Part shown: positions 15,509 to 24,847 of the stretch, one piece after another | Position numbering within the stretch: the stretch's first letter is position 1 | Layout of the letters: every line of letters starts with the position of its first letter | Origin: Bacteroidota bacterium | GTDB taxonomy: Bacteria > Bacteroidota > Bacteroidia > UKL13-3 | NCBI GenBank assembly: GCA_947460345.1 | Contig: CANHGM010000009.1 | Coordinates: 1 to 64,000, forward strand | Direction: 5' to 3' | DNA: 64,000 bases | Translations under genes and position numbers: made by a program | Notes under the pieces: model-generated | Told to the model about the DNA's origin: nothing | The model's database searches: none | What the model saw: only the letters and a program-made list of their open reading frames with translations

Positions 15509-15538
15509 TTTGTATATAAAAAATTATATATATAATTG
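15509..15538 (+). promoter_or_regulatory. Promoter of the histone H1-like gene
   Basis: TTTG (15509-15512), an 18-nt spacer, and TATAATTG (15531-15538), one mismatch from TAnnTTTG. Initiation near 15544 would lie downstream of the first in-frame ATG (15536), which supports the ATG at 15581 as the real start with a leader of about 37 nt. Confidence 0.55.
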
Positions 15539-15580
15539 CACCAACATTATATAATCACTAACCTAAATTATTATTTAAAA

Positions 15581-16315
15581 ATGGCTAAAAAACCAACACC
15601 AAAAAAAACAGCTCCAAAAGCTGCAGCAAAACCAGTTGCTAAAAAACCATTAGCAAAAGAAGAAACCAAAGGAGCTAAAATGCTTCAAGCTGTTAAAGCT
15701 TCTGCAAAAGGATTGACTTCAGGAGACATTGCGAATGTGATGGCAAAACTTGAACCTAAAAAAGATTTCGCGAAAGTGAAAAATTATGTAAACTTAACTC
15801 TTAATAATTATAAGAAAAAAGGTTTGCTTAAAGTTGAAACTAGAGACAAGAAAAACTATTATTTAGTTGGCGATGGAAAACCTGTAGCTACTTCTAAAAA
15901 AGCAGCAGCAAAACCAGCAGCTAAAAAAGCAGCCCCAGCTAAAAAAGCAGCTCCTGCAAAGAAAGCGGCAGCTAAGAAAGCAGCTCCTGCTAAGAAAGCA
16001 GCTCCTGCTAAGAAAGCAGCTCCTGCTAAGAAAGTAGCAGCTAAAAAAGCAGCTCCAGCTAAAAAAGCAGCAGCAAAACCAGCAGCTAAAAAAGCAGCTC
16101 CAGCTAAAAAAGCAGCAGCAAAACCAGCAGCTAAGAAAGCAGCTCCAGCTAAAAAAGCGGTAGCAAAACCAGCAGCTAAGAAAGCAGCTCCAGCTAAAAA
16201 AGCAGTAGCAAAACCAGCAGCTAAGAAAGCAGCTCCAGCTAAAAAAGCGGTAGCAAAACCAGCAGCTAAGAAAGCAGCTCCAGCTAAAAAAGTTGTTGCT
16301 AAAAAGAAAAAGTAG
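15581..16315 (+). CDS. Histone H1-like Lys/Ala-rich DNA-binding protein
   Basis: A 244-residue basic protein. Residues about 1-30 are Lys/Pro/Ala-rich. Residues about 30-105 form a small folded part (GAKMLQAVKASAKGLTSGDI, then KNYVNLTLNNYKKKGLLKVE and KNYYLVGDG), which reads like a winged-helix or HTH unit. The remaining 140 residues are AKKAAPAKK-type repeats, similar to eukaryotic H1 tails and to HctB/AlgP-type bacterial proteins. It probably binds and compacts DNA through charge. ATG 15581 is chosen over 15536 because the upstream codons (HQHYIITNLNYYLK) do not fit the basic tail and the promoter overlaps them. A strong terminator follows. Confidence 0.88.
   Translation: MAKKPTPKKTAPKAAAKPVAKKPLAKEETKGAKMLQAVKASAKGLTSGDIANVMAKLEPKKDFAKVKNYVNLTLNNYKKKGLLKVETRDKKNYYLVGDGKPVATSKKAAAKPAAKKAAPAKKAAPAKKAAAKKAAPAKKAAPAKKAAPAKKVAAKKAAPAKKAAAKPAAKKAAPAKKAAAKPAAKKAAPAKKAVAKPAAKKAAPAKKAVAKPAAKKAAPAKKAVAKPAAKKAAPAKKVVAKKKK
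16067..16291 (+). repeat. Five tandem 45-bp coding repeats in the H1-like gene
   Basis: Five head-to-tail 45-bp units encode A-(A/V)-A-K-P-A-A-K-K-A-A-P-A-K-K: copies 1-2 with AAAKP and copies 3-5 with AVAKP. Units start at 16067, 16112, 16157, 16202 and 16247. The near-identity of DNA as well as protein suggests recent expansion; copy number is likely to vary between strains. A less regular KKAAPAKKAA region precedes it (about 15900-16066). Confidence 0.9.
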
Positions 16316-22032: not shown

Positions 22033-23667
22033 ATGAAACTCATATTTTGTATTGCATCTTTAATACTTGGGATTAGTTTTTCTCAATCTCAAACTATTTA
22101 TCATCATGCCAAAATTTATACTGTCGATGAAGCTTTCAATATTGCTGAATCATTTGCAGTTAAAGATGGAAAAATTGAAGGAGTAGGTAGTCTTACTCAA
22201 CTTAAGGCTCAATTTCCAAGTTATTCTTTAATTGACCTAAAGGGTAAATATATATATCCTGGATTTATTGATGCACATTGCCATTTTTTAGGATTAGGTC
22301 TTTCTAAACAAATGGTTGATTTAAAAGGAACTAAGTCTATGGATGAAGTTATTCAACGTTGTGTTGCGTTTGATAAAAAATTTCCTTCTTCTATTTTATT
22401 TGGAAGAGGTTGGGATCAAAATGATTGGGTTGATAAAAGTTTCCCAACTAACGAGCAACTTAATAAATTGTTTCCCAATAAAATTGTAATTCTAAAACGT
22501 ATTGATGGACATGCAGCCTTGTGTAATGATTTTGTATTAAATCTTGCCAAAATCACTTGTAGTTTAAAAGTTGATGGAGGAGAAATCATTTGTAGAAACA
22601 ATAAACCTTCAGGTGTTTTAATTGATAACGCTGTTGACTTAGTCATGACAAACGTGACAGCTTTAGATGAAAATTATATATATCAATCTTTAAAACTTGC
22701 ACAAACTGAATGTCTTTCATATGGTTTGACAACTGTGGTTGATGCTGGATTAGAGCTTGATACGCTTCAAAAAATACAACATATATACGACCAAAATTTG
22801 CTTAAAATTAGATTTAGTGGAATGTATGCTGCTTCTGAAAAGTGTTTAAAATATATTAAACAAAATTCAAATAGTTTAAGTAAAACAAACAATCAATTAT
22901 TTTCTGTAAACGGAATCAAAATATATGCTGATGGAGCTTTAGGTTCTAGAGGAGCATGTCTGAAACAACCCTATTCAGACAGAGAAAATCACTATGGGTT
23001 TTTATTAACTCCATTAAAACAAATAAATGAAATTGCAGCTTTGGCTATGCAAAAAAATCTTCAAATGAATGTACATTGTATAGGTGATTCTGCATCTTTT
23101 ATTGTGATGAATGTTATGGGAAAATATTTAAAAGGTATAAATGATAAACGATGGAGGATAGAGCATGCACAAGTGATTGGTTCTTCAGATTTTGATATGT
23201 TTAAGAAGTTTTCTATTCTTCCATCTGTTCAGCCAACTCATGCTACAAGTGATATGCCTTGGGCTGAAAACAGACTTGGAAGCAAACGTATTTCTAATGC
23301 ATATGCATATAAAAAATTGTTGAATCAAAATGGATATATAGCCTTAGGTACTGATTTCCCGGTTGAAGATGTTAGTACTTTTAAAACATTTTATGCGTCT
23401 TGTATTCGCAAAGATTCAGATGGTAACCCCAATGATGGTTTTCAAATAGAAAATGCACTCACCAGAGAAGAAACGATTAAAGGCATGACCATTTGGGCGG
23501 CTAAAAGCATATTTGAAGAGTATAGCAGAGGGAGTATAGAAAAGGGTAAAAGTGCTGATTTTATTGTTCTTGATCAAGATTTGATGCAAGTGAAAGAATC
23601 AAAAATACTATCTACGCAGGTTTTAGCTACTTATATAAATGGTGAAAAGGTTTTCGAAAAGAAATAA
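22033..23667 (+). CDS. Secreted amidohydrolase family 3 (YtcJ-like) metal hydrolase
   Basis: After a signal peptide (MKLIFCIASLILGISFSQSQ) the chain begins TIYHHAKIYTVDEAF, the usual start of YtcJ-type amidohydrolases. Metal ligands are visible in DAHCHFLGLG near residue 82, the KIYADGALGSRGA segment near residue 296, HCIGD near residue 350, and WRIEHAQVI near residue 376. TDFPVED near residue 440 carries the catalytic Asp. It should hydrolyse an N-acyl or similar bond; the substrate is unknown. There is no Cys lipobox, so it is probably periplasmic. Confidence 0.88.
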   Translation: MKLIFCIASLILGISFSQSQTIYHHAKIYTVDEAFNIAESFAVKDGKIEGVGSLTQLKAQFPSYSLIDLKGKYIYPGFIDAHCHFLGLGLSKQMVDLKGTKSMDEVIQRCVAFDKKFPSSILFGRGWDQNDWVDKSFPTNEQLNKLFPNKIVILKRIDGHAALCNDFVLNLAKITCSLKVDGGEIICRNNKPSGVLIDNAVDLVMTNVTALDENYIYQSLKLAQTECLSYGLTTVVDAGLELDTLQKIQHIYDQNLLKIRFSGMYAASEKCLKYIKQNSNSLSKTNNQLFSVNGIKIYADGALGSRGACLKQPYSDRENHYGFLLTPLKQINEIAALAMQKNLQMNVHCIGDSASFIVMNVMGKYLKGINDKRWRIEHAQVIGSSDFDMFKKFSILPSVQPTHATSDMPWAENRLGSKRISNAYAYKKLLNQNGYIALGTDFPVEDVSTFKTFYASCIRKDSDGNPNDGFQIENALTREETIKGMTIWAAKSIFEEYSRGSIEKGKSADFIVLDQDLMQVKESKILSTQVLATYINGEKVFEKK

Positions 23668-23669
23668 AC

Positions 23670-24266
23670 TTAATTTCTATTAACTTCGAGCTGTTCAACA
23701 ATCTCAGCTATTTGTTCCCAGTCGCTGTATCCAGCCTTCAACTCATCTGTTCCAGATAGGTCTATATTTTTATTTGACAAGTCAGAAATTTTTGTTAATG
23801 ATTCAGGGTCTGAAACATGAATATAAAACTCAAATTTTGATTGAATCAATTGAATCTGTGCAATATCATCTGTATATAGTGACAATATAATATTTTTATC
23901 GCCAGCCATATGTTCTATTGCTTGTATTCTAGGAAGAATGGTTAATATGTTTTCTTTGGTTATTTCTATATTTAAAAAAACGGTATTCACTATTTCAAAT
24001 AGCGATTCATCATAACATTCTATTGGTATTTCTACTGCTTCTAATGATAAAATAGCAGCGATCCCTCTAATTTCTGACAGATTTTTACCATTAAACTTCC
24101 CAAAATAAGTAGGCCCTGAAAGCCAGCCTTTTATCTCTTTGGCTTTAAGTGAATTTATCACATGAGGAGTATCTACTATAAAATTAAATCCAATCCAATC
24201 AAAACCTTCAGCTGCTGCATATCTAGCATCCGTAAGATTGGTAATATCGCTAAGCCTTAGTTTCAT
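23670..24266 (-). CDS. TrpF-like (phosphoribosylanthranilate isomerase fold) protein lacking catalytic residues
   Basis: The N-terminus MKLRLSDITNLTDARYAAAEGFDWIGFNF aligns with the TrpF start (K-x-C-G-I-T, D-A, G-x-D-x-x-G-F-x-F), but the catalytic Cys and following Gly are S6 and D7. The middle LLD...GGTG stretch, which carries the general acid and phosphate loop, is not visible; ILSLYTDD stands in its place. The C-terminal NIDLSGTDELKAGYSDW keeps the shape of the TrpF end (D-x-S-S-G-x-E). The fold is therefore probably kept and the isomerase activity lost. It overlaps iscX by 4 nt and shares an operon with ferredoxin, with no trp genes nearby. Confidence 0.72.
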   Translation of the reverse strand: MKLRLSDITNLTDARYAAAEGFDWIGFNFIVDTPHVINSLKAKEIKGWLSGPTYFGKFNGKNLSEIRGIAAILSLEAVEIPIECYDESLFEIVNTVFLNIEITKENILTILPRIQAIEHMAGDKNIILSLYTDDIAQIQLIQSKFEFYIHVSDPESLTKISDLSNKNIDLSGTDELKAGYSDWEQIAEIVEQLEVNRN

Positions 24267-24502
24267 TTTTTCTGATTATCTCTCCATTCATAAACCCATG
24301 AACTTTGAATCATTTCTAAATGCCCTTCGTTGCATTCTTCTCTTGTGCCTTTAAAGTTTGGGATTTCTAAAACCCATTCTATTAGTTCAGTAAACCTGAT
24401 TCTGTAAATCTTGCTTTCACCAAATTCTTCGCCAAATTTTTCATACAATGCCATAGCAATGTCTTCGTAATCGTTCCAATGTATTGGGAGTGTAAATGAC
24501 AT
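24263..24502 (-). CDS. iscX: IscX (YfhJ) Fe-S cluster assembly protein
   Basis: A 79-residue acidic protein matching IscX: LPIHWNDYEDIAMALYE at the N-terminus, then the IRFTELIEWVLEIPNF segment and a C-terminal SWVYEWRD. IscX binds IscS and iron and modulates cluster assembly in the cytoplasm. Here it follows ferredoxin by 15 nt, the same order as the end of the proteobacterial isc operon (fdx-iscX), but iscS, iscU and hscBA are absent. It overlaps the TrpF-like gene by 4 nt. Confidence 0.92.
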   Translation of the reverse strand: MSFTLPIHWNDYEDIAMALYEKFGEEFGESKIYRIRFTELIEWVLEIPNFKGTREECNEGHLEMIQSSWVYEWRDNQKK

Positions 24503-24517
24503 ATTTTTTTTTTGTTT

Positions 24518-24847
24518 TTAATGACCTAAGTATTGTGATTGGTCAGGTATAGTTATGGTTACATCTCCATGTAATATATCGCATTGGCAGGCAAGTCTTG
24601 AGTGAAGCTTAGGGTTCATGGCTCTATCAATAAAGTCTTCTTCTCTATCACTCAACTCTTTTAAATGTTCCATTCCTTGGTTTACATAAATATGACAAGT
24701 AGTACATGCACATACACCTCCACAATTGTGATGAAGTTCAATGTCATTCTCCATGGCTACTTCTAAAATTGTTTCACCTGTTTCTGCTTCAAATGTTTTT
24801 GTTTCTTCGTTTGGATTTTCAAACTGAAAAGTTATTTTATGGGTCAT
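24518..24847 (-). CDS. fdx: ISC-type [2Fe-2S] ferredoxin
   Basis: At 109 residues it has the vertebrate/ISC-type ligand pattern C-x5-C-x2-C (NCGGVCACTTC) and a fourth ligand in RLACQCD near residue 87. The N-terminus HKITFQFENPNEETKTF is the usual beta-grasp start. It supplies electrons for Fe-S assembly or other reactions in the cytoplasm. A TAATTTTG -7 element at 24859-24866 precedes the ATG by 11 nt, so it heads the fdx-iscX-TrpF-like operon. Confidence 0.95.
   Translation of the reverse strand: MTHKITFQFENPNEETKTFEAETGETILEVAMENDIELHHNCGGVCACTTCHIYVNQGMEHLKELSDREEDFIDRAMNPKLHSRLACQCDILHGDVTITIPDQSQYLGH

Follow-up and report, generated by a model that had tools for sequence, protein, structure and literature searches.

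A TrpF-like barrel protein conserved in Bacteroidota that appears to have lost PRA isomerase function and is probably kept for another role

The analysed stretch of DNA, called the window below, comprises 64,000 nucleotides from a Bacteroidota bacterium and carries three co-directional genes in the order fdx-iscX-TrpF-like (Table 1). The coordinates were re-read and agree on every point with a preliminary description of the locus: the gene order, the 15-nt gap between fdx and iscX (24503-24517) and the short overlap of iscX with the TrpF-like gene, which is consistent with translational coupling of these two genes in the window species. It had also been claimed that trp genes are absent nearby and that the locus lacks iscS and iscU. 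No trp genes were seen in the window, and the iscS-iscU-iscA genes of the same genome sit on another contig, C49. Scans for promoters and terminators around the operon gave nothing beyond chance, and an Rfam scan around it gave no match.

A convergent gene for an amidohydrolase (Amidohydro_3, 22033-23667) ends 2 bp from the stop of the TrpF-like gene. Its ortholog, with 50% identity, is found directly upstream of the TrpF-like gene in another genus (L062:4500-5954, L065), and the adjacency in two genera is a hint of an older TrpF-like neighbourhood that would predate the join to fdx-iscX. Elsewhere in the window, at 15536-16315, there is a gene for a Lys/Ala-rich histone H1-like protein with PAKKAA repeats.

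Table 1. Positions of the operon genes and of the features discussed in the text, numbered along the window.
Feature	Position	Strand	Basis
TrpF-like gene, 198 aa; (beta/alpha)8 barrel without the catalytic residues of PRA isomerase	23670..24266	-	ORF, fold, residue tables, family searches
Codon 6, Ser where T. maritima TrpF has the catalytic Cys7; codon 7, Asp in place of the conserved Gly	24249..24251 (codon 6)	-	Alignments; position counted from the ORF start at 24266
ATGA overlap of 4 nt, iscX stop and TrpF-like start	24263..24266	-	Sequence
iscX, 79 aa	24263..24502	-	Pfam PF04384, E 6.7e-24; NCBIfam TIGR03412 (iscX), over the cut-off
fdx, 2Fe-2S ferredoxin, ISC type by best match, 109 aa	24518..24847	-	Pfam PF00111; NCBIfam TIGR02007, E 2.5e-28, below the cut-off of that model

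A Pfam search with the TrpF-like protein of the window gave no match, and its matches to the NCBIfam TrpF models are all below threshold, the best having an E-value of 2.9e-5 over residues 2-78; the score is 23.8 bits as compared to a cut-off of 215. No HisA family was found among the Pfam and NCBIfam matches, so a HisA-type sequence was not detected there. Of 57 relatives of the protein, 38 match Pfam PRAI at E <= 0.001, and a profile built from its relatives matches solved TrpFs at E 1.8e-15. A structure model had been proposed as a check in the preliminary description, and the AlphaFold model of the window protein shows the TrpF barrel with its eight strands at a pLDDT of 94.2. Its 11 best matches in the PDB are TrpFs, with TM-scores of about 0.7-0.8. 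Since both the profile of the relatives and the model lead to TrpFs, the protein can be regarded as a TrpF homologue, and the N- and C-terminal TrpF signatures noticed earlier are indeed retained, together with the fold and the length.

The region of strands 5-7 varies among the TrpF-like proteins and is partly missing in some of them. The model of a member of only 155 aa (pLDDT 86.8) is a barrel with a part of the middle missing, which implies that the protein can do without some of the old active-site scaffold. Shortened forms were also observed at L095:5989-6453, with copies in G020-G024 (frames of 159-163 aa), where the loss affects part of the barrel middle and spares the N-terminal third as well as the C-terminal end.

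In the TrpF of T. maritima, Cys7 is the general base and Asp126 the general acid. We compared the residues of 96 sampled members of the TrpF-like family with those of 31 canonical TrpFs. The catalytic Cys is present in all 31 canonical proteins and in none of the 96, where the position is instead occupied by Ser (57), Gly (25), Asn (6), Arg (4), other residues (3) or a gap (1). The Cys-Gly of TrpF corresponds to Ser6-Asp7 in the window protein, exactly as the preliminary description had read it, and the loss of the Cys, which it left as a question, thus extends to every relative sampled. The general-acid Asp (in LLD) and the GG(T/S)G motif are found in 31 of 31 canonical TrpFs and are substituted or deleted in the TrpF-like family; both are absent from the window protein, in line with the missing GGTG/acid region described before. 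The window protein also lacks the SPR arginine, QLHG and LSGG, and across the 96 members none of these five elements is any longer a conserved motif. Eight residues are invariant in the TrpF-like family, namely Leu11, Ala14, Arg15, Phe27, Trp48, Gly51, Glu175 and Gly179. We considered Arg15, Trp48 and Gly51 as marks of a new function and dropped them, the same residues being found in Cys-bearing TrpFs outside Bacteroidia.

In the phylogenetic analysis the TrpF-like proteins make up one side of a branch with a support of 100/100, present in 100% of 200 bootstrap trees (99 in a quick tree), and they are separate from all Cys-bearing TrpFs sampled. Cys-bearing TrpFs beside trp genes, which had been named as a finding that would speak against a retired enzyme, do exist in the phylum, but they do not contradict it since they belong to a separate clade. 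Two kinds of them were observed, one with a DAR...W..G signature outside Bacteroidia (L161-L180) and another in the trp operons of Bacteroidia (L118-L124). A further TrpF homologue (L131, genome G468) has KICC replacing KICG and is cut by the contig end. Some of the TrpFs outside Bacteroidia carry the Arg15/Trp48/Gly51 signature, which suggests that the TrpF-like proteins may descend from a TrpF of this DAR...W..G type. The best tree supports this weakly: the grouping has a support of 69/85 and is found in 13% of 1000 bootstrap trees. The alternative, a grouping with the trp-operon TrpF, is not rejected (p-AU 0.43). The dN/dS values of 32 close pairs of relatives, which do not include the window copy, are 0.04-0.24 and show that the gene is under purifying selection in these relatives.

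A single-sequence search found the TrpF-like gene in 59 of 64 genomes of the host family. By profile search it is present in 57 of 62, and in 44 of the 45 of good quality, with one gene in each; the two profile matches in G023 are the two ends of the same reading frame, and one family genome, G006, has an in-frame TAA in the gene. Loss of the tryptophan pathway in the family was judged from searches for TrpC and canonical TrpF. TrpC (PF00218) was detected in none of the 62 genomes and in 14 of 14 controls, and every PF00697 match over the cut-off in the family sits at the TrpF-like gene itself, which means that the family keeps this gene despite having neither TrpC nor a canonical TrpF. The genome of the window has no PF00697 match over the cut-off, and for TrpA it has just a sub-cut-off match to a different protein. 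Judging from these searches, the relatives of the host bacterium seem to be unable to make tryptophan. Each family genome has two chorismate-binding proteins, which would, by inference only, be PabB and isochorismate synthase and not TrpE. Since the Cys is missing throughout the family and the searches of the host genome detected neither a canonical TrpF nor TrpC, the earlier idea of a retired isomerase is supported.

Outside the host family, a single-sequence scan of a wider contig collection found nothing, and an alignment query found relatives. The 80 named loci that were kept come from Bacteroidota or from bacteria without a phylum label and include Cytophaga aurantiaca and Cyclobacteriaceae MAGs; many of their titles are MAG labels with unreliable taxonomy. 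A further 15 loci, contributed by four other families of the class, likewise lack the Cys. Eight Cytophagales-like genomes have both a Cys-bearing TrpF and a TrpF-like gene, the former located between trpC and trpB in seven of them and the latter elsewhere. Profile counts over the whole phylum were not used, because the score fails to separate TrpF-like from canonical TrpF proteins. In several other families of the class (L149-L160) the TrpF-like gene was observed among trmB, a Mur-ligase-type (FolC-like) gene, an S8 peptidase gene, a lipoprotein-like gene, mnmA and a ribulose-phosphate-epimerase-like gene.

Taken together, we consider it probable that the TrpF-like protein is a conserved Bacteroidota descendant of PRA isomerase, predicted to be dead as an isomerase and kept for some other housekeeping role, most likely a non-catalytic one. 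The firmer parts of this explanation are that the protein, as judged from its residues, should not be a PRA isomerase, and that it is kept by selection in the relatives and is not tied to Fe-S genes. The isomerase chemistry would have been lost while the barrel fold stayed intact, and the barrel may now serve, without catalysis, to bind either another protein or a small ligand. Apart from one position at the end of strand 3, no new polar residues mark an active site throughout the family, and this suggests a non-catalytic role. Strict conservation of the N-terminal third and of the end of strand 8 points to these parts as the probable working or structural core, in contrast to the barrel middle, which is free to vary and has been lost in part from some relatives. 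A more specific scenario, which we put forward only tentatively, is that in a lineage that lost tryptophan synthesis the old TrpF was retained as a dedicated pseudoenzyme and took on a new role of importance, such as that of a scaffold, a regulator or a sensor, and that the tryptophan-making sisters carry it beside a distinct trp-operon TrpF. It is also known that the TrpF reaction can be carried out by a different protein, as in the HisA/PriA enzymes (PMC4732765), which counts against the explanation given here.

The main rival to a non-catalytic role is that the family has gained a new enzymatic activity, whose substrate would probably be a phosphorylated metabolite and whose rebuilt site would consist of a Glu located where strand 3 ends and a Gly-Gly-x-Glu loop after strand 8. 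This Glu is specific for the family and found in 86 of the 96 members, where canonical TrpF has Val, and it could mean that an active site has been rebuilt, which counts against a non-catalytic role. Such an activity would also fit with the intact barrel, with the purifying selection and with Glu175 and Gly179, which lie close to the former phosphate site and are retained. However, the window protein has Lys57 in place of this Glu, no further polar residue that is new to the family comes close to being invariant, and the strand 5-7 region is variable and in some members partly absent. We regard a new activity as rather unlikely, although it is the strongest of the alternatives.

It could also be argued that the copy in the window species is a decaying relic without function. 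It is strongly diverged, with a long end branch of 1.3-1.7 changes per column, and has lost some of the residues that most of the family shares (Cys28, Asp30, Glu57). This is improbable, as the reading frame is intact, the fold is predicted with high confidence, all eight of the invariant family residues are kept and the start codon overlaps iscX.

The preliminary description had further suggested a role for the protein in Fe-S or electron-transfer biology. This would mean that it acts with IscX and the ferredoxin in cluster assembly or in electron transfer, as the compact co-directional operon of the window might indicate. The relatives give another picture. Neither iscX nor fdx is found near the TrpF-like gene in any of the 80 named loci, thus in one of 81 when the window itself is counted, an absence of conserved linkage that had been named beforehand as speaking against such a role. 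Within the host family iscX is present in 10 of 62 genomes, as compared to 57 of 62 for the TrpF-like gene, so that most family genomes have the latter without the former, and the two are adjacent in the window only. In the other nine genomes with iscX, it is located beside fdx on a different contig from the TrpF-like gene. The fdx-iscX pair itself is conserved, 10 of 10, and the arrangement in the window is therefore best seen as a lineage-specific join of two separate units, which would give co-expression and not a shared pathway. In genus g7 (L143-L145) the fdx-iscX pair was observed to be followed by a coaD-like gene and not by the TrpF-like gene. The close same-strand neighbour of the TrpF-like gene changes with lineage; in the 81 loci it is an upstream DUF2480 gene in 21, an upstream FtsX-like permease gene in 12, other genes in some, and none in 25. 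Moreover, the only Cys of the window protein, Cys84, is not at a conserved position. IscX is reported to bind IscS and to compete with CyaY (PMC5801593), and no observation here ties the TrpF-like barrel to the IscX-IscS binding. With the linkage not conserved, the Fe-S role is unsupported and very improbable; of the earlier reading the retired TrpF is supported and the tie to Fe-S biology is not. The position beside Fe-S genes is peculiar to one species and says little about what the protein does.

That the protein still is a PRA isomerase with substitute residues, as its descent and fold might suggest, is the least credible explanation, given that the motifs for catalysis and substrate binding are both gone, that no TrpC was found in 62 genomes to use the product, and that the tryptophan-making relatives carry a separate canonical TrpF.

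The TrpF-like family clearly exemplifies how a metabolic enzyme can outlive its pathway under selection, and it is near-universal in one Bacteroidota family. In the library searched, no paper on a TrpF-like pseudoenzyme, DUF2480 or the iscX linkage was found. Because many members weakly match TrpF models, automatic annotation could credit the hosts with a step of the tryptophan pathway that is absent. The locus also illustrates that neat operon structure, even with overlapping start and stop codons, can be the peculiarity of one species.

Among known systems, the TrpF-like protein is most naturally compared with PRA isomerase TrpF (Pfam PF00697; T. maritima 1NSJ, 1LBM, 1DL3), which it resembles in fold, length and terminal signatures. 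It differs in lacking the catalytic Cys and all the motifs listed above (the SPR Arg, QLHG, LLD, GG(T/S)G and LSGG), in being located outside a trp operon and in scoring far below the curated NCBIfam TrpF cut-offs. The canonical DAR...W..G TrpFs outside Bacteroidia (L161-L164, L168-L180) share with it the Leu-x-x-Ala-Arg after strand 1 and the Trp48-Gly51 stretch, but none of the catalytic motifs is lost in them, and trp genes adjoin those for which enough flanking sequence was retrieved. The Bacteroidia trp-operon TrpF (K-[IV]-C-G-x-[RK]; L118-L124) is a distant homologue that co-occurs with a TrpF-like gene in some genomes; in contrast to the TrpF-like protein it is Cys-bearing, is located within trpC-trpF-trpB clusters and forms a clade apart with a support of 100/100. 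The fdx-iscX pair of the ISC system adjoins the TrpF-like gene co-directionally in the window, whereas in the other nine family genomes the pair stands without it.
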